64,000 nt of DNA, taken from NCBI RefSeq assembly GCF_023006325.1, contig NZ_JAINDF010000005.1, forward strand, positions 62,001-126,000, read 5' to 3'. The notes under the pieces are model-generated. The model had not been told where the DNA came from. It was given only the letters and a program-made list of their open reading frames with translations, and ran no database searches. The translations under genes and the position numbers were made by a program. Of this stretch, positions 15,635 to 28,170 are shown piece by piece; the first letter of the stretch is position 1, and every line of letters begins with the position of its first letter. Source of the DNA: Kordiimonas marina. GTDB lineage: Bacteria > Pseudomonadota > Alphaproteobacteria > Sphingomonadales > Kordiimonadaceae.

Positions 15635-15692
15635 GTGCCGGATCCTCCTTGAAGTGCGTCTTCGTAGCTAACACGCGTGGACGCCAAAAGAA

Positions 15693-15714
15693 AAGGCCGG
15701 GTGTGCCCCGGCCT
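15693..15714 (-). terminator. Terminator after the TonB-dependent receptor
   Basis: AAGGCCGG-GTGTGC-CCCGGCCTT is a strong stem 26 bp past the receptor stop. Read leftward it is followed by TTTTCTTTTG, giving an intrinsic terminator that separates the accessory module from dapB. The plus strand also has a T-run after it. Confidence 0.75.
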
Positions 15715-15739
15715 TCGCTATTTTTTCTTGTGGTCCGCC

Positions 15740-18475
15740 TTAGAAGGTCGCGGTCAGGTCCACGCCCCAGGTGGCGGGCATACTCAGATGCGCGATCGGC
15801 GTGCCGAAGGTATCGACCGACAGGCCGCCCGCCCCGTCGGCATAGCGGTTGCCGAAGATGTTGCGCCCGAAGAAGGATACGCTGAAGCGGTCATCCGGGT
15901 CGGACCAGGTGATGCGGGCGTTGGTGAGGTTCTGCGCCTTGCCGACCACGAAGCTGCTAGCACCCCAGGTGATGGTGCCGCAGCTTCTGTCATGCAGGCA
16001 GTTGCCGTTGATGCGTTTGGCGCTGGTGTAGGAATGGTCCAGATGGACGCTGAGCGCACCTTTGTCACTGCCGAGACCGAGCGTATAGTCAGCACCGAAG
16101 GAGATGCGCGTCGTCGGTGCGCCCGTCGGGTCACCCGCGTTCGCGTAGCGGCAGTTTTTGGTGCAGGTAATATCCTGGTAACCACCGTTGGCGAAGAGGC
16201 GCAGTCCAACCGCAGGGGCCCACAGGAATTCGACATCGACACCCTTGCCTTCGACATCCTGGTTCTCGGTCACGTACCGGGGCACGCTGGAGCTGTCGAC
16301 GCTCACCAGATGGATCGACTGTTTGTCGCTATATTTATACTTCCATACCGAGGTGTTGAAACGGACGCGGTTGTCGAACCACTGGGACTTGAGCCCGGCC
16401 TCCACGTTCCAGACGCTTTCATTGCCAAAATAGCTGTTGATCTCCACGGTGTTGAAACCGCCGGCCTTATAGCCGCGCGCCCAGGAGACATAGACCATGG
16501 CGTCGTCGCCGATCTTATAATCGAGCGCCACGCGTGGGCTGACATTGTTCCAGCTTGCCTTGCGGGTGAAGGGCACGCCTTCAAGCCCGCCGACATCGAA
16601 GACGATATCGCCCGATGCGGTCGGCCCGACAAAGGCCCGGAAAATGCTGGTCAACAGCTGTTGCTGGATATCGGCGAGGTTGCCGACGCCGGGGATCGAA
16701 AGCCTGTCATAGCCTTCGATCTGACGGAGGCCGTTTTCCCAGGTCCAGCTTTTGTCGTCATGGGTATAACGAAGGCCCGCGCTCAGGTTCAGCCGGTCGG
16801 TGATGGCATAGGTGGCATCCGCGAACGCCGCGTAAGCCTTGAAGCTGCCTTCGCCATACATGGTCTCGGTCCACTTACGGCCGCTGAGGGTTGTGAGGCC
16901 AAGGTTGGCGAGTTGTTCAAGCGAATAGCCGGGCAGGCTGGAATCCAGGCAGTTGAGCGGCAGGTTGTTGAAGCTGATGAAGCCGCCGAGTGAATCCAGG
17001 AAAGTCGCCTCGCACGAATTTATCCCGTCCATCGGGTTGAAGCTGGCGGCCAGCACACCCGGTGTGACGCCGAGGTTATAAAGCACGGTATCGATGCTAT
17101 CCATCGTCGCGTGGGTCTGGCTCTGCTGTTTGGCGTTTTCCCAATAATAGCTGGCACCGACCGTCCAGGTCAGGCGGCCGCGGTTCCCGTTGAGCCGAAG
17201 CTCCTGATAGAAGTTCTTGTTGTTTTCGACATTGTTGGTGTCGAAATAGAAGTTCGGGTCGTTGGTGCCGTCCTCATCCTGCAGGTTATCTGTGGCAAAA
17301 TGCTTATAGGCCGAAATGGACGTGAGCTTGGCCCAGTCGAAATCATGGGTGATGGTGAGCGTGAGGCCGTCCAGGTCCCGATGTTCGGCGCCATTGGCGA
17401 TGTCGGAGCTGACCGGCCCGAACGGGTTGGCGCCACCGACGCTTGAGGCATCGCGGAAGAAGTTCCAGTCCGCATTCGGGTTTGCAGGCGTATAGCCGAA
17501 GGCGCCGAAGCCCGCATAGATGCTTGAGAGCGGGATGCTATAGAGCGTGCTGAGCGGCGTATCCTTGGTGATCGGCAGGCCAAAGAGCGGCGCGATCCCG
17601 GCAAGGAAATCACCATGGCCCGGCAGGTCCCCCACCGTCTGGGCGCCAAGCGGCGCGCGCATGTGACCATCGGCAAGGCCGACCACCGGCGGGTTTTCAT
17701 CCTGCGATGTATGGTCGAACTCATAAGCCAGGTTGAAGGCGGTCTTGTCGTCCGGCTCCCAGCGCAGCTGCACCCGGCCGGTGACATTATGGCGGCGGCC
17801 GTAATCCTTGCCGGTGAAGCTGTCCCTTACCGTGCCGTCCTGGCTGTTGATCAGGAGGTTCGCGCGCATCGCCAGGGTTTTCGCGAGCGGCAGGTTGATC
17901 ATGCCGTCGAACTGGCGCTCATTGAAGCGGCCATAACGCAGCTTCACCCGGGCTTCGGTCTCATCCATCTTCGGCTTGTTGGTGATGATGGAAATCGCCC
18001 CTGCCGCGGTGTTACGGCCGAAAAGCGTGCCCTGCGGACCCTTGAGCACCTCGACGCGCTCAACGTCCGAGAAGAAGACCACCCCGGCGCCGGAGCGCGA
18101 GGAATAGACGCCATCGATGAACACGCCGACCGCCGGGTCGGTACCGACACCGAAGTCGTCGGTCTGGACACCGCGGATGCTGTAGTTCGGCTGGGTGACA
18201 CCGCTGACCTGCAGGCCCGGCGTGTAGGACGATAGGTCGGTGATGTCATAAGCGGCGATGGTATCGATGAAGCTGCTTGAGAAAGCATTGAGCGCGATCG
18301 GCACATCCTGGGCCGATTGTTCGCGCTTCTGCGCCGTGACGACGATTTCCTCAAGACCGGATGTTTTTTTCGCGGCACTCACGTCCGCCGGTTCGGCGGC
18401 AAAAGACGCGGATGTCAGCAAGACGAAGGCGCTGACGCCCGCCAACAATTTATGGGCTATATGGTTCGTGTGCAT
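15740..18475 (-). CDS. TonB-dependent outer-membrane receptor
   Basis: Signal peptide (KLLAGVSAFVLLTSASFAAEP), a TonB-box-like EEIVVTAQKREQ, then the plug: YSIRGVQTDDFG, DGVYSSRSG, DVERVEVLKGPQGTLFGRNTAAGAISIIT. A long beta-barrel follows, ending in VDLTATF with the C-terminal Phe. ATG 18475 follows a G-rich ribosome site, giving 911 residues; the frame is open further upstream but that part is not signal-like. The plug type is the one common in Sphingomonas/Hyphomonas receptors for organic substrates; the ligand is unknown. It is last in a leftward run with the cytochrome and beta-helix genes. Confidence 0.93.
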   Translation of the reverse strand: MHTNHIAHKLLAGVSAFVLLTSASFAAEPADVSAAKKTSGLEEIVVTAQKREQSAQDVPIALNAFSSSFIDTIAAYDITDLSSYTPGLQVSGVTQPNYSIRGVQTDDFGVGTDPAVGVFIDGVYSSRSGAGVVFFSDVERVEVLKGPQGTLFGRNTAAGAISIITNKPKMDETEARVKLRYGRFNERQFDGMINLPLAKTLAMRANLLINSQDGTVRDSFTGKDYGRRHNVTGRVQLRWEPDDKTAFNLAYEFDHTSQDENPPVVGLADGHMRAPLGAQTVGDLPGHGDFLAGIAPLFGLPITKDTPLSTLYSIPLSSIYAGFGAFGYTPANPNADWNFFRDASSVGGANPFGPVSSDIANGAEHRDLDGLTLTITHDFDWAKLTSISAYKHFATDNLQDEDGTNDPNFYFDTNNVENNKNFYQELRLNGNRGRLTWTVGASYYWENAKQQSQTHATMDSIDTVLYNLGVTPGVLAASFNPMDGINSCEATFLDSLGGFISFNNLPLNCLDSSLPGYSLEQLANLGLTTLSGRKWTETMYGEGSFKAYAAFADATYAITDRLNLSAGLRYTHDDKSWTWENGLRQIEGYDRLSIPGVGNLADIQQQLLTSIFRAFVGPTASGDIVFDVGGLEGVPFTRKASWNNVSPRVALDYKIGDDAMVYVSWARGYKAGGFNTVEINSYFGNESVWNVEAGLKSQWFDNRVRFNTSVWKYKYSDKQSIHLVSVDSSSVPRYVTENQDVEGKGVDVEFLWAPAVGLRLFANGGYQDITCTKNCRYANAGDPTGAPTTRISFGADYTLGLGSDKGALSVHLDHSYTSAKRINGNCLHDRSCGTITWGASSFVVGKAQNLTNARITWSDPDDRFSVSFFGRNIFGNRYADGAGGLSVDTFGTPIAHLSMPATWGVDLTATF

Positions 18476-18592
18476 CGGGTTCCCCCCTCTTCCCTGTTTC
18501 CTGCTTATCTGGTGGCCGCACCTTTTTCCCCTCCGGCACGGCCGTGCCCTTCCCCAAGGGCCTTTCAAGCATCTACACTCTGAACAATCGTT

Positions 18593-19642
18593 TTATTTCA
18601 TGCTGTTAATCCACTCCTTCAGCATGGCGACACCTTCCTGGTGCACCATGGTGCGGCCCGCCTCCGGCATCATGATGCCGGGGTCGTTGGACGACAGGCG
18701 GAAGATCATGATCGACTGGTCGGCGTGGCCGGGCACGATGTCGAAATCGAGCCCACCGGCACCGCGGCCCGCCGCCACCGGGCGTTTCATGATGCCGCGG
18801 TGGGTTTTGTTGGTTGTCCCCCAGGTGAGGAACAGGCCGGACGTGGAGCCAGGGCCTTCAAGCCGGTGGCAGTGCGCGCAGTTGACATCCAGGTAAGCGC
18901 GTGCGCGGGATGCGAGGTCAGCGGACGCGTCATCCCAGCGCGGGACCGACGGTACATGGGCGGGCACACCGGTGAGCTTCCCGGCCTTTACCCAATGCTG
19001 GATCTGGTTTTCCGCCCCGGCCTTGTAGGCGAACACATGGTTGAGGTTGCGCGCCTTCGGGCCGATCGGCGTGAAGGCGCGGTCGAAACTGTGGCAGCCC
19101 TTGCACTGGTTTTTGTTCGGGACAACATAATTAGTGCCGCGCGGATGCCCTGAGGTGTCGCGCCAGGCCACCGGAAGTGTTGCTCCGGCAACAGAAAGCG
19201 TCGCGTCGCTCATGTCCGCGTTCCAGATATAGGCCCAGGCGTTCCAGCCCTTCTTCTGATGGATCAGGAGCCGGGTTTCGATGAGCCGGACATTCTTATC
19301 CGGCCGCCTGAAGTCCGCAGGATACGCGAAGGTTTTCATCAGCACGGTGCCGACCGGAAAATGCAGCACTTCCGTGTCGTCATAAGACGCCTTCTGCCCC
19401 TTCGGAATATAGACGAAGCGGAACTTGTGGGCGTAATCGGTGAAGAGCGGCGTCGCCAGGTCATAGGGCATGACCCCAACGTTCGGCAGCTGCGCCGCGC
19501 CGTTGATGAACAGGTGATAGTCCGACAAGTGCCGGGCCGGACGCGGGTTCAGGAGCGCGGCTTCATTGACCGGCTCGGCGGCATGACCCGCCCCTGAGAG
19601 CGCCAGGAACACGCTGAACAGACTGAAAACAAACGCTTTCAC
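18593..19642 (-). CDS. Diheme c-type cytochrome, SO2930/HNE_0200-like family
   Basis: A Sec signal peptide (VKAFVFSLFSVFLALSGAGHA) leads into a periplasmic protein with two heme c sites, CKGCH (about residue 180) and CAHCH (about 255), plus a Met-rich PGIMMPEAGR near 321 that could give an axial ligand. The N-terminal ~170 residues (MPYDLATPLFTDYAHKFRFVYIPKG) are typical of the family I know as TIGR03806, usually encoded beside beta-helix proteins of TIGR03805, as here. I chose GTG 19642 because GGAAGGGGG precedes it; ATG 19747 would overlap the upstream gene. Its redox partner is unknown. Confidence 0.85.
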   Translation of the reverse strand: MKAFVFSLFSVFLALSGAGHAAEPVNEAALLNPRPARHLSDYHLFINGAAQLPNVGVMPYDLATPLFTDYAHKFRFVYIPKGQKASYDDTEVLHFPVGTVLMKTFAYPADFRRPDKNVRLIETRLLIHQKKGWNAWAYIWNADMSDATLSVAGATLPVAWRDTSGHPRGTNYVVPNKNQCKGCHSFDRAFTPIGPKARNLNHVFAYKAGAENQIQHWVKAGKLTGVPAHVPSVPRWDDASADLASRARAYLDVNCAHCHRLEGPGSTSGLFLTWGTTNKTHRGIMKRPVAAGRGAGGLDFDIVPGHADQSIMIFRLSSNDPGIMMPEAGRTMVHQEGVAMLKEWINSMK

Positions 19643-19661
19643 GTGAAACCCCCTTCCCGGC

Positions 19662-20996
19662 TTACTGGCTGTCGGATCGACTGTCGGATCGACTGGCGGA
19701 CTGACTGCCGGACGGTGCGGAGGCCGAAGCCCCCGCAGCGCCAGCATCCTGATCCTGGGGCAGTTTCACTGCCGCGCGGCCCGGGAAGGAGCCACCATAG
19801 TCCTCGATGTCAAAGTCGGGCGAGGCGCCCCAGGGCAGGACATGGTCTTTCGCCATCTGGAGATTGACGAAAGTAGTGCCTTTTTTCTCATGAATGCGGA
19901 TGCCGTCTTCGGCCGACGGACCAAAGAGCGCGGCCCAGAAGCTGTTTACAACACCGTCCCAGATGATGTCCGGGAGCGGCAGGCCGGTCTTGGGCTCGAT
20001 CAGCGTTTTTGCCAGCTTGTCCGGCGCATAGCCCGCCTTGCCATAGCGGTTGTCATGGATATAAATCCGGCGCGGCATCGGGATATAGGTCGGGTCGGTA
20101 AAGTCCCGCGGGTAGGATGCCAGAAGCACGTTGGTGGTGGCATTGCCGCCAATATCATTGTCGAAAATTTCCACATCGCGGTTCGCCATCACCATGATGC
20201 CGGTGCCCATGGGCACGGTGCCGACGATGTTGCCTTCGGGCGCGAAGTTGGCGGTGTCGTTATCGACCGACCGGTTATGGTAGATGCGGATCGAATGGCC
20301 GCCCATCTGCGGCAGGTTCGGCATGTCGAACGCCAGAATGCCGCCGGTATTGTGGGTGGCAACATTGTCGTGCACGTCGGCGAAATAGCAGTTTTCGATC
20401 TCGATGCCGGCGACGTTATATTCGGCGCGGCTGTTGCGGACGATGATGTGCTGGCTTTGGCCAACATAAATGCCCGCGTCCGACGCACCCTTCACCACGG
20501 CGCCGTCGATCAGCACATTTTTGGATTGGACCGGGTAAAGGCCGTAGGAGCCATTGTTCGGGCTGGGACCGCCGGTCCATTCAACCCGCACCCCGATCAT
20601 GGAAACCGTATCGACGCCTTTGGTCTTGATGCCGTCACCGGGTGTGTCCTCGATGGCGAAGCCTTCGAGCCGAACCCCGTCAGACGTGACCAGAAGGCCT
20701 TCGCCACCGTTCGTCTGCCCCTTGTAGGAAAAGACGGTCTGGTCCATGCCCGCGCCTTTGAGGGTGATACCCTGGACGTCGATCGACAGCCCGCCAGTCA
20801 TGTCAAAATGGCCGGGGCCGATCTCGATCGTCGTGCCCGGTTCCGCCATGATGAGCGCTTCCTGTAACCGTCCTTCGAAATTGTCGCCCGCGGCGATCTG
20901 CACCACCTTGTCGGCGGCGTGCGCGGCGAATCCAAAATTCATCACGAATAGGGCCACCATGAACATGGCGGCCGACATGCTTGTCAGCTTTTTCAT
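19662..20996 (-). CDS. Right-handed parallel beta-helix repeat protein (TIGR03805-like)
   Basis: A signal peptide ending AAHAAD is followed by successive ~23-residue rungs typical of a pectate-lyase-like beta-helix: IDVQGITLKGAGMDQTVFSYKG, VRLEGFAIEDTPGDGIKTKG, IIVRNSRAEYNVAGIEIENC, VHDNVATHNTGGILAFD and VEIFDNDIGGNATTNVLLASY. The C-terminus is a low-complexity Ser/Arg/Asp tail encoded by a 12-bp DNA repeat. GGAGGAAT before ATG 20996 fixes the start; 444 residues. It lies 19 bp upstream of the diheme cytochrome gene. Such folds bind or cleave polysaccharides, but no catalytic residues are assigned. Confidence 0.85.
   Translation of the reverse strand: MKKLTSMSAAMFMVALFVMNFGFAAHAADKVVQIAAGDNFEGRLQEALIMAEPGTTIEIGPGHFDMTGGLSIDVQGITLKGAGMDQTVFSYKGQTNGGEGLLVTSDGVRLEGFAIEDTPGDGIKTKGVDTVSMIGVRVEWTGGPSPNNGSYGLYPVQSKNVLIDGAVVKGASDAGIYVGQSQHIIVRNSRAEYNVAGIEIENCYFADVHDNVATHNTGGILAFDMPNLPQMGGHSIRIYHNRSVDNDTANFAPEGNIVGTVPMGTGIMVMANRDVEIFDNDIGGNATTNVLLASYPRDFTDPTYIPMPRRIYIHDNRYGKAGYAPDKLAKTLIEPKTGLPLPDIIWDGVVNSFWAALFGPSAEDGIRIHEKKGTTFVNLQMAKDHVLPWGASPDFDIEDYGGSFPGRAAVKLPQDQDAGAAGASASAPSGSQSASRSDSRSDSQ
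19669..19716. repeat. Degenerate 12-bp tandem repeat at the 3' end of the beta-helix gene
   Basis: CTGTCGGATCGA occurs twice head to tail (19669-19692), followed by two diverged units (CTGGCGGACTGA, then CTGCCGGACGGT). On the coding strand it encodes the Ser-Arg/Ser-Asp tail. Copy-number change here would lengthen or shorten the tail without shifting the frame. Confidence 0.7.
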
Positions 20997-21089
20997 TATT
21001 CCTCCCCCCGCCCCACGCCTGTCCAAAAGCAATGGGACTCATTAATTCCTCCTTTGCAACTGTGCCGAAGCCAAATGCCCGCGTCAAGG

Positions 21090-21112
21090 TAAAGTGAAAC
21101 ATTTTCACTTTA
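21090..21112. promoter_or_regulatory. Palindromic operator between the beta-helix and TetR genes
   Basis: TAAAGTGAAA-CAT-TTTCACTTTA is a perfect inverted repeat with 10-bp arms and a 3-bp spacer. It lies in the 181-bp divergent gap, 94 bp from the beta-helix start and 66 bp from the TetR start. That size and placing are typical for a TetR-family dimer pair controlling both itself and the divergent operon. Confidence 0.72.
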
Positions 21113-21177
21113 TGAGGCTTGAATTAGGCTTGGGGCTATGGCAAGGCCTTGGCTCGCAACCTCCGACAAAGGAAGGG

Positions 21178-21798
21178 ATGAGGGTGACCAAAATCACCAG
21201 TGCCGCGACCAAAAAGACGCCGAAGCAGGCCCGCGCCCGTGCGCGTGTGGACGCTATCCTCACGGCGACCGAGCAGCTGCTCGTGGCGGAAGGCCCGAAC
21301 GGGCTGACCACAACGGCGATCGCGCGCGCGGCCGACATCCCCGTGGGCTCGGTCTATCAATATTTCGCCGACCGCGACGATATCCTCGAACAGCTGTACC
21401 ATGCGGCCTACGACCATGTGATCGGCCAAGTGGCGGATCATCTGGAAACCCTGTCAGGCCCCATGGACCTGAAGACAATCATCCACGGGCTTCTGACCAC
21501 CTTCTGGCAGGAAGCCCGCGCCCACACAACCTTCCGGCCGCTGACCCGCTGGGCCAACAGCAGCCATTCCCTGTGGGAGGTCACCCCCGGGGTTCACAGC
21601 AGCCTCGACGACCTGATTGCCCGCGTGCTTGAAAAAGCCGGTGTATCTGTGGCCGAGGCGCGGCAGCTTGCCGTGATGAAAACCGTGAGCACGACGGTCT
21701 CGATCCTGGTCGATCAGGCGATCGAGGAGCAGGACGAAATCCTGGCAGAACAACTTATCGACGAGCTTGCACATCTTGTGTCTTCCTATCTATCCTGA
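21178..21798 (+). CDS. TetR-family transcriptional regulator
   Basis: The N-terminal helix-turn-helix is intact: ARVDAILTATEQLLVAEGPNGLTTTAIARAADIPVGSVYQYFADRDDILEQLY. The C-terminal ligand domain contains QEARAHTTFRPLTRWANSSHSLWEV and is not assigned to a ligand class. AAAGGAAGGG before ATG 21178 supports this start; 206 residues. It is divergent from the beta-helix/cytochrome/receptor genes across a 23-bp palindrome, so it most likely represses them. The start region is Thr/Lys/Ala-rich. Confidence 0.9.
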   Translation: MRVTKITSAATKKTPKQARARARVDAILTATEQLLVAEGPNGLTTTAIARAADIPVGSVYQYFADRDDILEQLYHAAYDHVIGQVADHLETLSGPMDLKTIIHGLLTTFWQEARAHTTFRPLTRWANSSHSLWEVTPGVHSSLDDLIARVLEKAGVSVAEARQLAVMKTVSTTVSILVDQAIEEQDEILAEQLIDELAHLVSSYLS

Positions 21799-21858: not shown

Positions 21859-22350
21859 ATGCTGAAAATAGCCAAAAGCGGCGCAATGGACTGGATGCTG
21901 AGGGAAGGCCCCGGCAATTACCGGATCGAGCGCCGCCCGCTGACCCCGGAAACCCACGCCTGCAACCTTGGCTGCAGCCGCTACCGGCTGGAGCCCGGCA
22001 AGAAATCCTGCCCGGCGCATTATCATTATGGCAACGACGAAGCGATTTACGTCCTGTCCGGCGAGCTGACGCTGCTGTTCGACGGCCAGCCCCATACCCT
22101 GACGGAAGGCGACTATGTCACCCTGCCGCGCGGCACGGGAGATGCGCACCAGCTTGAAAACCGTTCCCTCACGCCTGTTGAATATCTGTGCTTCTCGACC
22201 ATGGAGCCCGCCGACGTCATCATGTATCCGAATTCCGGCAAGATCGGCGTGTTCGGCGGCGGTGCCCCCGGTGGCGCGGAGAGCGAAGTAAGCGTCCGCC
22301 AATGGGTGAAGGATGACGCCATCGATTATTGGGCCGGTGAAGAAGACTGA
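21859..22350 (+). CDS. Cupin-domain protein
   Basis: A single cupin_2 barrel of 163 residues. Motif 1 is CPAHYHYGNDEAIYVLSGELTLLFDG, with the His/His/Glu metal ligands in H-x-H-x(5)-E spacing, and motif 2 is around PRGTGDAHQLENRS. The C-terminal ADVIMYPNSGKIGVFGG resembles a group of cupins annotated only by fold. It lies 60 bp after the TetR gene and may share its transcript; whether it belongs to the receptor module is unclear. The substrate is unknown. Confidence 0.8.
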   Translation: MLKIAKSGAMDWMLREGPGNYRIERRPLTPETHACNLGCSRYRLEPGKKSCPAHYHYGNDEAIYVLSGELTLLFDGQPHTLTEGDYVTLPRGTGDAHQLENRSLTPVEYLCFSTMEPADVIMYPNSGKIGVFGGGAPGGAESEVSVRQWVKDDAIDYWAGEED

Positions 22351-25615: not shown

Positions 25616-25930
25616 TTTATACCTCTTCCCTTTGCAGCCGACTGCCCCGGGCCCATACGGCACCCTTTTGCAGCCTCTTGGGGTTAGCGTTCTTTGGTTA
25701 ATGGCAGGTCCCCAAAACATCCGGGTAACTACCTGTTTCAGGGCCTATATAAGGTTGCCCCGAGGGCCCCGCAAGGGCGGGGACGTATAAAATTTGCCTT
25801 TTCCAGCATTGTTTTCCAGCGTATAGGGCCAAAGAAGAAACGGCGGTGTGGGCAAACCCGGCCCGTCAAAAAATTCAACCGGTACCATTCTGTGATTGAA
25901 AAAGGGCGGTTCGCCGCTAAACTCCGGCCC
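25616..25930. other. 315-bp divergent intergenic region between dnaK and lepB genes
   Basis: No gene is supported here: the frame running into the signal peptidase from 25694 has no family-like N-terminus. The region holds the dnaK heat-shock promoter (25744-25775), a CCCCGC-AAGG-GCGGGG hairpin at 25767-25782, and an AT-richer part at 25790-25820 that may carry the lepB promoter. Confidence 0.6.
25744..25775 (-). promoter_or_regulatory. Heat-shock (RpoH-type) promoter of dnaK
   Basis: Read leftward: CTTG (25775-25772), a 17-bp spacer, then CCTTATATAGG (25754-25744). This matches the alphaproteobacterial sigma-32 pattern of a CTTG -35 and a C(C/Y)TATnT -10. It implies a dnaK leader of about 120 nt. 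Assigned from sequence pattern only. Confidence 0.5.
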
Positions 25931-26725
25931 ATGACAACAAAAGAAAAAGCACCTTCAGGCAACGGCGGGGAAGACAAAGCAGAGCCAAAAGCCCGCTCCG
26001 GCGGCAGCGAAGCGCTCATGCTCCTCAAAGACCTTGCGGTCATCATTCTTATCTATCTGCTGTTCACCACATTCGGCTGGGGCAGCTATCATATTCCGTC
26101 AAGCAGCATGGAACCGACGCTCGAGGTCGGTGACCGGATTTTCGTTTCCAAGCTCGTTTACGGCTACAATAAATATTCCTTTCCGTTCCAGGTCGTTCCC
26201 ATCGAGAAGCGCATTTTCGATGGTGAGCCCAAGCGCGGCGATGTCGTTGTCTTCACGCTGCCCTACCGGAACAACACCGACTTCATCAAACGCGTGATCG
26301 GCCTGCCGGGCGACACGGTCCAGATGAAGGGCGGCCGGCTTTATATCAACGGCACGATGGTGCCGCGCACACTGATCCGCGAAGTCAATTACACCGACTA
26401 TCAGGGAACCCAGCGCCGGGTGAAGGAATATGAAGAAACCCTGCCCGGTGGGGTGAAGCACCGTATCTATGAACAGACCGACAAAGGCGACATGGATACG
26501 ACGATGCTCTATCTCGTGCCGGAAGGCACCTATTTCATGATGGGTGACAACCGCGACAACTCGATGGACAGCCGCTACCTGACCCACATGGGCTTCGTCA
26601 AGCACCAGTATCTGGTCGGCCGCGCCGATATCACCTCCATCAGTTTCTATAACTGTGCCGAAGGCAAGGATATCTGGTGCCCGCTCCATATCCCGCTTGG
26701 GCGCTTCTTCAAGCGTATCCACTGA
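25931..26725 (+). CDS. lepB: Signal peptidase I, first of three tandem copies
   Basis: Membrane Ser/Lys protease that removes Sec signal peptides at the periplasmic face. A charged N-terminus (residues 1-30) precedes one membrane span (VIILIYLLFTTFGWG). The catalytic Ser59 is in SSSMEPTLEVGD and the general-base Lys120 in DFIKRVIGLPGD; box E is MGDNRDNSMDSR. The C-terminal tail has two Cys (YNCAEGKDIWC) shared in position with the other copies. 264 residues. ATG 25931 was chosen from the hydrophilic start; the ribosome site is weak. First gene of a three-gene run divergent from dnaK. Confidence 0.92.
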   Translation: MTTKEKAPSGNGGEDKAEPKARSGGSEALMLLKDLAVIILIYLLFTTFGWGSYHIPSSSMEPTLEVGDRIFVSKLVYGYNKYSFPFQVVPIEKRIFDGEPKRGDVVVFTLPYRNNTDFIKRVIGLPGDTVQMKGGRLYINGTMVPRTLIREVNYTDYQGTQRRVKEYEETLPGGVKHRIYEQTDKGDMDTTMLYLVPEGTYFMMGDNRDNSMDSRYLTHMGFVKHQYLVGRADITSISFYNCAEGKDIWCPLHIPLGRFFKRIH

Positions 26726-26739
26726 ACAAGTAGGCCGCA

Positions 26740-27423
26740 GTGAAACGTCACCTCATCAAAAACTGGCCGATATACCTGGGGGCGATGGGGACGGCAGTCA
26801 TCATCTATGTGGTCTTGACCTTCAACAGCTACCGCATCCTGTCCGGCAGCATGGAACCGACTTTGGAAGTCGGCGACCGGCTGGTCACGGACAGGTTCGC
26901 CTACCGGATGGACGGCACCGATGCCGCCCAAAAACCCCAGCGGGGCGATATCATCGTCTTCACCCTTCGGAACACCCCTTATCTCAAGCGGGTCGAAGGC
27001 CTGCCCGGAGACAGCTTGCAGCTTAAAGATGGCCGGCTTTATATCAATGGCACGCTGGTGCAGCGGGATTATGTCCGCGACCTTGATTATATCGATTATC
27101 GGGGCGCCCCACAGCATGTGAAGCTGTATCGGGAAACCCTGCCGGGCGGCCGGTCCTACCCAATATATGAGCATACCGACCAGGGCAGGGCGGACAACAC
27201 GCCGCTTTACATCGTGCCGAACGGACATTATTTCGTGCTCGGCGACAACCGCGACAATTCGCTCGACAGCCGCTTTCTGACCCACATGGGCTTTATCAAG
27301 TCCAATGAGATCGGCGGAAAAGCGCGCTTCATTACGTTCAGCCTGTATGACTGCACACCACGAAGGGGCGCGGCTTGCCCCGGCGGCACAGCCTTCAGCC
27401 GTTTTTTCACGCGTCTTCAGTAA
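26740..27423 (+). CDS. Signal peptidase I, second tandem copy
   Basis: The start codon is GTG, 14 bp after the first copy. One N-terminal membrane span (WPIYLGAMGTAVIIYVVLTF), catalytic Ser37 in SGSMEPTLEVGD, Lys83 in PYLKRVEGLPGD and box E LGDNRDNSLDSR are all intact, so it should be active. It is the shortest (227 residues) and most diverged copy: the region between Ser and Lys is shorter, and IKRVIG has become LKRVEG. The tail keeps two Cys (YDCTPRRGAAC). It may have a narrower or distinct substrate range; that is inference. Confidence 0.9.
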   Translation: MKRHLIKNWPIYLGAMGTAVIIYVVLTFNSYRILSGSMEPTLEVGDRLVTDRFAYRMDGTDAAQKPQRGDIIVFTLRNTPYLKRVEGLPGDSLQLKDGRLYINGTLVQRDYVRDLDYIDYRGAPQHVKLYRETLPGGRSYPIYEHTDQGRADNTPLYIVPNGHYFVLGDNRDNSLDSRFLTHMGFIKSNEIGGKARFITFSLYDCTPRRGAACPGGTAFSRFFTRLQ

Positions 27424-27441
27424 AGGGGGGATATCCCTGCC

Positions 27442-28170
27442 ATGACAACCCAGATCCGCCGTTTCCTAATGGACCTTGTGACCATCTTCGCCTTCTGGCT
27501 CATCTTCACGACCGCCGGCTGGCAAAGTTTCAATATCGTCTCCGGCAGCCTGGAGCCGACGCTCGAGGTTGGCGACCGCATCATGGTCCGGAAATTCGCC
27601 TACGGCTATAACCGCTTCTCGGTGCCCTTCAACCCGAAATTCCTCGGCGACCACCGCATCTTCTTCACCGCGCCCAAGCGCGGCGATATCGCGCTGTTCC
27701 GCCTGCCCTACATGCAGAACGAGGACCTGATCAAACGGGTGATCGGCTTGCCGGGCGACACGGTGCAGATGAAACAAGGCCGGCTTTACATCAACGGCAA
27801 GATCGTCCCGCGCACCAAAATCCGCGACGTTAATTACACCGACTATCAGGGCATGCCCCAGCATGCGACCGAATATGAGGAAACGCTGCCGAACGGGGTC
27901 AAACACCGGATTTACGAGCGGACGGATGAAGGCGAGGTAGACAATACCGGCCTCTATGTCGTCCCCGCCGGGCATTATTTCATGATGGGCGATAACCGCG
28001 ACGATTCCCTGGATAGCCGCTTCCTTTCCCACATGGGCTATGTCGACCAGAAATACCTGGTCGGCCGCGCCGATATCACCACCTTCAGCCTCTATGACTG
28101 CGACCAGGGCAAGGCGATCAGCTGTTCGGCGGGTATTCCGCTCGGCCGCTTCTTCAAAGTGATCCACTGA
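27442..28170 (+). CDS. Signal peptidase I, third tandem copy
   Basis: It starts 18 bp after the second copy. A single N-terminal span (LVTIFAFWLIFTTAGW), Ser36 in SGSLEPTLEVGD (Leu replaces the usual Met after the nucleophile), Lys98 in DLIKRVIGLPGD and box E MGDNRDDSLDSR. It is closer to the first copy than to the second, sharing RLYING, DVNYTDYQG and GRADIT segments, which points to local duplication. The tail has the same Cys pair (YDCDQGKAISC). 242 residues. Catalytic residues look complete. Confidence 0.9.
   Translation: MTTQIRRFLMDLVTIFAFWLIFTTAGWQSFNIVSGSLEPTLEVGDRIMVRKFAYGYNRFSVPFNPKFLGDHRIFFTAPKRGDIALFRLPYMQNEDLIKRVIGLPGDTVQMKQGRLYINGKIVPRTKIRDVNYTDYQGMPQHATEYEETLPNGVKHRIYERTDEGEVDNTGLYVVPAGHYFMMGDNRDDSLDSRFLSHMGYVDQKYLVGRADITTFSLYDCDQGKAISCSAGIPLGRFFKVIH

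Follow-up and report, generated by a model that had tools for sequence, protein, structure and literature searches.

Analysis of a 64-kb stretch of the Kordiimonas marina genome (hereafter the window, G000:C21:62001-126000; the source genome has 3.68 Mb in 25 contigs) suggests, on balance, that one locus in it encodes a TetR-repressed module, in which an exported right-handed beta-helix protein and an exported diheme c-type cytochrome form a redox core and an uptake receptor is added to it. Leftward from an inverted repeat, the genes for the beta-helix protein, the diheme cytochrome, and a TonB-dependent receptor follow one another, and those for the TetR regulator and a cupin follow rightward. 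A first-pass annotation of this DNA had named the leftward run of receptor, cytochrome, and beta-helix genes facing a TetR gene, and all four were found in place. Likely starts were chosen by eye (ATG 18475 for the receptor, GTG 19642 for the cytochrome, ATG 20996 for the beta-helix protein, and ATG 21178 for TetR). The main elements, with residues numbered in the open reading frame (ORF), are as follows.

15740..18475, minus strand: TonB-dependent receptor, 911 amino acids from ATG 18475; dedicated clade, optional part.
18593..19642, minus strand: diheme c-type cytochrome of the SO2930 family; core, with two CxxCH motifs and a signal peptide by eye.
18866..18880, minus strand: heme 2 site CAHCH, ORF residues 290-294.
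19091..19105, minus strand: heme 1 site CKGCH, ORF residues 215-219.
19662..20996, minus strand: TIGR03805 right-handed beta-helix protein; core partner, with a signal peptide by eye.
21090..21112: putative TetR operator, an inverted repeat TAAAGTGAAA-cat-TTTCACTTTA with the conserved core TGAAANNNTTTCA.
21178..21798, plus strand: TetR-family repressor; ORF open from 21094, likely start ATG 21178.

The spacing is 19 nt from the beta-helix stop to the likely cytochrome start and 117 nt from the cytochrome stop to the likely receptor start, and no terminator-like site was found in the 117-nt gap. An alternative TetR start, GTG 21094, falls within the operator.

Comparison among genomes indicates that the beta-helix/cytochrome pair is the core of this arrangement, that TetR is an addition, and that the receptor is an optional addition. 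Both proteins of the pair score above the curated NCBIfam cut-offs of the families to which they had initially been assigned: the beta-helix ORF (19662-21032, minus strand) matches TIGR03805 with 392.7 bits (cut-off 141.5), and the cytochrome ORF (18593-19747, minus strand) matches TIGR03806 with 405.6 bits (cut-off 313.3). That the two families are neighbors is noted in the NCBI model text and in the first-pass annotation. Among 289 genomes spread evenly over the class, TIGR03806 was over its cut-off in 12 and TIGR03805 was present at E ≤ 1e-30 in 14, and the 12 all lie within the 14; marginal TIGR03806 matches in G140 and G238 (~23 bits) were left uncounted. The two extra genomes, G116 and G220, carry a distant TIGR03805 subtype (~197 bits). 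We then compared 93 loci, which comprise 80 named loci, one plasmid, 11 loci from the class sample, and the window; the 80 named loci are the best 80 of at least 589 and are therefore close to the window cytochrome. ORFs in the locus comparisons came from a simple ORF caller rather than a gene finder. The beta-helix gene is directly 5' of, or fused to, the cytochrome gene in 82 of these 93 loci (77 adjacent by script, three with overlapping ORF calls, and two in a single frame). The remaining 11 have no beta-helix gene locally, but TIGR03805 exceeds its cut-off elsewhere in all of their genomes (19 of 19 genomes searched, a set that does not include the L022 genome). Overall, the two families co-occur closely.

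Fusion of the two proteins is common in the family of Halioglobus japonicus (Halieaceae). A sample of 120 genomes of this family contains 38 TIGR03806 matches over the cut-off in 34 genomes, and 32 of the 38 lie in open frames of at least 794 amino acids. Both profiles occur in one frame, beta-helix first, in 25 of the 30 loci compared from this sample; the other five consist of three with separate neighboring genes, one cut by a contig end, and one with the cytochrome only. Because they are fused in relatives, which is the strongest sequence evidence available, the beta-helix protein and the cytochrome very probably form one physical unit. By eye, the fused Haliea/Halioglobus proteins (L052:302-2854 and L074:8531-11077) also have acidic N-terminal repeats that resemble dockerin/EF-hand calcium-binding loops.

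The TetR ORF (21094-21798, plus strand) matches TetR_N (PF00440; score 42, cut-off 24) and TetR_C_15 (PF17918; 30.7, cut-off 26.8), and none of eight models of ligand-specific TetR types (FadR, BetI, and others) was reached, with the best at 27.9 bits against a cut-off of 200. The element in front of it had been described as a perfect 23-bp palindrome. The two 10-bp arms at 21090-21112 are indeed perfect, but the 3-nt center CAT is non-palindromic, giving a 10+3+10 structure. With three mismatches allowed, its 21-base core is found at a single place in the window and never in 100 shuffles, and the 23-base pattern occurs in the 3.68-Mb genome exactly here and, with three mismatches, at one other place.

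Conservation of this element was scored at 114 loci, where TetR-positive denotes a TetR of the window type within 4 kb. Eleven loci without a beta-helix gene and loci with less than 300 bp upstream were left out, and duplicates (L193, L196, L200, L207, and L209) were dropped here and from the receptor-proximity count below. Across loci that are related by descent and hence do not count as independent events, which holds for the receptor counts as well, an exact core TGAAANNNTTTCA precedes the beta-helix gene at 26 of 30 TetR-positive loci and a one-mismatch version at the other four, whereas the 84 TetR-negative loci include none with an exact core and four with one mismatch. Six permuted control palindromes gave 0 of 684. 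This contrast makes it very probable that the inverted repeat serves as the operator of TetR, and it supports the idea of a single TetR operator before the run. The TetR-positive loci span Kordiimonadaceae, Mesorhizobium, and other alphaproteobacteria.

The order sample gave a closer view of the site. It holds 18 exact core copies in 43 loci (555 kb), all upstream of beta-helix genes. The window's own family contributes 21 loci with the pair (window included), with dapB downstream in 20 and a contig edge at L211, and 19 of the 21 have the window-type TetR gene in divergent orientation to the beta-helix gene. At L217 and L221, where TetR is on the far side of the cytochrome gene, an exact operator is still present 5' of the beta-helix gene, so the site follows the target promoter. 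One genome (G359) has two copies of the pair (L202 and L221) in different arrangements, with an exact operator core at each.

The receptor ORF (15740-18568, minus strand) matches Plug (PF07715; 56.2, cut-off 23.9) and TonB_dep_Rec_b-barrel (PF00593; 87, cut-off 27). Judged from its phylogeny and gene neighborhoods, the receptor is optional but dedicated to the module. In a quick tree of 47 rows, from which three gathered receptor rows were left out, the window-type receptors form one clade of 16 rows with a Shimodaira-Hasegawa-like approximate likelihood ratio test (SH-aLRT) support of 100; the unlinked receptors that matched best in nine genomes or records fall outside it. Thirteen members of the clade lie beside the pair, two (G317 and G338) with TetR and dapB only, and one in G331. 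Scoring of at most nine candidates per genome in the order sample found a window-type receptor (E ≤ 1e-60) in 16 of 99 genomes, 13 with the cytochrome and three without (G317, G331, and G338). Eight further loci of the family carry, 3' of the cytochrome gene, a receptor 60-76% identical to that of the window. Receptor ORFs number 27 within 2 kb of the pair (320 kb) versus four at 2-6.4 kb (602 kb), a count in which broken genes (L015 and L022) appear as several ORFs and some receptors are encoded on the opposite strand or belong to different clades. A receptor lies within 2 kb of the pair in 24 of 84 alphaproteobacterial loci, which were selected from record titles and handles; the receptor profile was built from seeds of alphaproteobacteria and performs weakly on Bacteroidota.

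Pair-linked receptors occur in three gene orders: 3' in Kordiimonadaceae, divergent from TetR (L217 and L221), and 5' (L223 and a Novosphingobium plasmid). When 84 candidate places on this plasmid were scored, the top two proved to be the two fragments of the receptor gene beside the pair. This plasmid, pABRDHK22 of Novosphingobium sp. EMRT-2, has its pair-linked receptor gene (L015:8681-12497) split by an IS5-family transposase gene. In another family, five loci (L218, L219, L220, L226, and L233) have a receptor of a different clade 3' of the cytochrome gene, so receptor pairing arose more than once. Where TetR and the receptor are divergent, the gap between them contains operator sites with one mismatch, two in L221 (0 of 2000 shuffles) and one in L217 (4.6% of 2000). 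The dedicated clade and the operator-like sites before both parts when they are separated agree with the first-pass view of receptor and pair as one regulated set.

A different reading takes the pair as a stand-alone respiratory or redox-housekeeping unit, such as an outer-membrane electron outlet, and the receptor as a passing neighbor that shares the promoter and serves another purpose. It draws on the wide distribution of the pair without receptor or TetR and on the separate occurrence of receptor and pair. We consider it doubtful, given that the 13 pair-linked receptors belong to one clade whose three other members lie beside a window-type TetR, that receptor and pair stay together through three gene orders, and that the same clade adjoins a different beta-helix/diheme set, described below.

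Several observations do weigh against the regulated uptake module. The receptor is 3' of the cytochrome in nine of the 21 loci of the window's family, and the other 12 have the pair without it; four receptor-less genomes contain no close copy elsewhere, the best partial matches being 39-43% identical. With at most three candidates scored per genome, the window-type receptor was found at E ≤ 1e-100 in none of the 288 other genomes of the class sample, although the pair is present in 11 of them. Conversely, in G317 and G338, which have no TIGR03806 match, the TetR and receptor genes stand back to back beside dapB, and thus neither half needs the other. The operator was not found in order-sample loci of families other than the window's, and no window-type TetR was found beside the pair outside the alphaproteobacterial loci among the 114 scored. 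Of the operator sites before the receptor, those of L221 are strong, the L217 site is weak (P 0.046), and the best sites have two mismatches in L305 and L306 and three in L307. Neighbors were printed for 91 of the 93 loci (the fused L052 and L074 excluded) and 30 neighboring genes were classified; outside the window's family they include GlmM, sulfatase, RNA helicase, P450, amidohydrolase, transporter, and other genes, and within it dapB and further genes follow the pair. No shared substrate gene was found among these 30, which are housekeeping or mixed genes. Neighbors were likewise mixed at 20 loci of the Halioglobus family, with a receptor within five genes in three and TetR in one. The complete uptake-and-redox system proposed by the first-pass annotation therefore stands as one regulated uptake-plus-redox module, but not as a complete, obligate system, since 84 of the 114 loci lack a nearby window-type TetR and more than half of the family loci, as counted above, lack the receptor, a distribution that the annotation itself had named as evidence against its proposal.

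The different set beside which the receptor clade is found belongs to the distant TIGR03805 subtype. We collected eight loci of this subtype (L016 and L307-L313), namely six over-cut-off places, a Ruegeria plasmid, and G331. A MauG-like gene with two CxxCH motifs is near the distant beta-helix gene in all eight, directly 5' in seven and with one gene between in Ruegeria pomeroyi. The best model for these enzymes is TIGR04039, with 231.2 bits for L307 and 195.2 bits for Ruegeria, both below the cut-off of 362.85. The distant beta-helix proteins themselves have one CxxCH near the C-terminus in eight of eight loci, and the C-terminal part of the Ruegeria protein scores 25.9 bits with Cytochrome_CBB3, just below the cut-off of 27. 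In G331, a window-type TetR and receptor precede genes that encode an aldehyde dehydrogenase, a cytochrome c with two hemes, a MauG/MbnH-like diheme enzyme, and a TIGR03805 protein of the distant subtype, which scores 197.5 bits against the cut-off of 141.5. The L310 set (Halioglobus) is accompanied by a divergent receptor gene, closest to the window clade at 28% identity. TIGR03805 occurs in three builds: with a separate SO2930-type cytochrome as in the window, fused as in the Halioglobus family, and as a protein that itself bears a C-terminal c-heme motif and has a MauG-like enzyme as its neighbor. All three builds observed here accompany c-type heme, which suggests that beta-helix plus c-heme is a wider theme. 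Genes for aldehyde/alcohol dehydrogenases are also present beside the split receptor gene on the Novosphingobium plasmid. An aldehyde product of the module is weakly hinted at by these genes; aldehyde dehydrogenase relatives occur in only five of the pooled loci, and those of G331 and Novosphingobium are 27-32% alike.

The MauG-like neighbors recall the methanobactin operon, in which, according to PMC3621798, a TonB-dependent transporter (MbnT) and the diheme enzyme MbnH are encoded together with a partner protein (MbnP). By analogy, the receptor of the window might import a metal or metal chelate, and the cytochrome might reduce the metal or alter its ligand. The occurrence of a MauG/MbnH-like enzyme near the distant beta-helix form at all eight loci, the pairing of MbnH with a transporter in methanobactin operons (PMC3621798), and a weak similarity of the beta-helix protein to NosD, the right-handed beta-helix protein of nitrous oxide reductase maturation, are in its favor. 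We nevertheless regard metal uptake as unlikely. The receptor scores 103.4 bits with the siderophore receptor model TIGR01783 (cut-off 223.5) and failed 24 other listed receptor models, the regulator is a TetR, and the window cytochrome has no match to the MauG/CCP family PF03150 at E 0.001. The beta-helix protein is far below the NosD cut-off (TIGR04247, 35.6 bits versus 300) and, unlike NosD, has a diheme cytochrome as its partner. Trp152 of the beta-helix protein, described below, is not conserved in the MauG-linked form, which leaves a shared Trp modification unsupported. The window further differs from methanobactin operons in having a beta-helix protein as the partner, and the scan of five window proteins revealed neither a precursor nor a chelate gene.

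The AlphaFold2 model of the cytochrome (54 alignment rows) has a mean predicted local distance difference test (pLDDT) score of 94.9 and a predicted template modeling (pTM) score of 0.91. It predicts that the N-terminal ~150 residues are rich in strands and that both CxxCH motifs lie in the C-terminal part. Sequence searches against solved structures gave weak cytochrome c matches (four hits, E 0.82-0.97). In an alignment of 161 sequences, the heme-binding residues Cys215, Cys218, and His219 (heme 1) and Cys290, Cys293, and His294 (heme 2) are conserved at 1.00, as is Met360; His292, within the second motif, is at 0.97, and no other His or Met reaches 0.85. From the spacing, heme 2 likely has His/Met coordination with Met360 as the partner, and heme 1 likely lacks a conserved His/Met partner. 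Lys108, Arg110, Lys138, Glu157, Thr158, Arg159, and Trp168 in the N-terminal part are also at 1.00, and a conserved lysine (Lys108, Lys138, or Lys321) may serve as a heme ligand.

The beta-helix protein is predicted as a regular strand stack with a weakly predicted tail (AlphaFold2, pLDDT 93.7, 49 rows), and its sequence had no match among solved structures at E 0.01. Asp185, Glu211, Glu213, and Asn214 are at least 98% conserved in all three beta-helix builds; these four residues may form a binding or active site. Trp152 is present in 99% of form A (n=118) and 100% of form B (n=25), and the commonest state in form C (n=8) is a gap. We had considered an invariant Trp as a shared target of MauG-like modification because the distant beta-helix adjoins MauG-like enzymes; the idea was rejected as a shared mechanism, as a gap is the commonest state of the Trp152 column in form C.

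The beta-helix fold is common in glycan enzymes. Its presence here would also fit a polysaccharide-targeted redox module, in which a glycan is bound or cleaved by the beta-helix protein, the cytochrome supplies or withdraws electrons, and oligosaccharides enter through the receptor. Several loci of Bacteroidota have a sulfatase gene next to the pair, and one has a gene for a rhamnosidase-like protein, but no glycan-active enzyme was matched among the five proteins of the run or the classified alphaproteobacterial neighbors, which makes this alternative improbable.

In the regulated uptake-plus-redox module that we favor, TetR would occupy the palindrome when no ligand is bound and keep the beta-helix-cytochrome-receptor run off, and a small compound, or a cytoplasmic metabolite of it, would release the repressor. 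The receptor would carry the compound (or its product) across the outer membrane, and the beta-helix protein, possibly in a complex with the cytochrome, would bind the compound in the periplasm or at the cell surface. The cytochrome would move electrons between the compound and the respiratory chain via the putative His/Met heme 2 and the second heme; the latter, which appears to have no conserved His/Met partner, is a possible reactive site. As a first guess, the substrate is an organic compound that is oxidized outside the cytoplasm. The extracellular rubber oxygenases RoxA and RoxB, which are diheme proteins, illustrate a similar concept: the enzyme is exported and the cell then imports its product. 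Unlike RoxA, which is a member of the CCP/MauG superfamily, the window cytochrome has no match of this kind.

The closest known counterparts of the locus are the TIGR03805/TIGR03806 neighbor families themselves, whose curated cut-offs both window proteins exceed. A literature search, which left most subscription papers outside its reach, found no paper that describes the fusion, the TetR operator, or the dedicated receptor. Generalizing from the three builds, TIGR03805 may be the substrate-holding half of exported heme enzymes, and the association of TetR and receptor with more than one build may point to a new class of regulated outer-membrane uptake coupled to extracytoplasmic heme chemistry; we regard this broader claim, drawn from sequence comparison, as possible rather than probable. 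Two widespread uncharacterized families, found as a single chain in some bacteria and as a fixed pair in others, would gain a testable joint function. The defined repressor site and the dedicated receptor provide handles for finding the inducer. Its discovery would identify the substrate and reveal whether the combination of beta-helix and c-type heme is a general design of extracytoplasmic enzymes.

Two further features border the locus.

15692..15716: two-way terminator-like hairpin after the receptor gene; consensus match only.
21859..22350, plus strand: single-domain cupin, accessory; Cupin_2 64.7 bits, cut-off 27.2.

Terminator-like sites in the region number six, compared with a shuffle mean of 5.7, i.e. 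no excess. The cupin gene adjoins TetR in just three of the compared relatives (L194, L205, and L206). Among the matches listed, the nearest named relative by cytochrome is Kordiimonas gwangyangensis (Kordiimonadaceae), whose locus L017 likewise has TetR, the pair, and the receptor. Elsewhere in the window (25694-28170, plus strand), three consecutive ORFs resemble, by eye, tandem copies of signal peptidase I.

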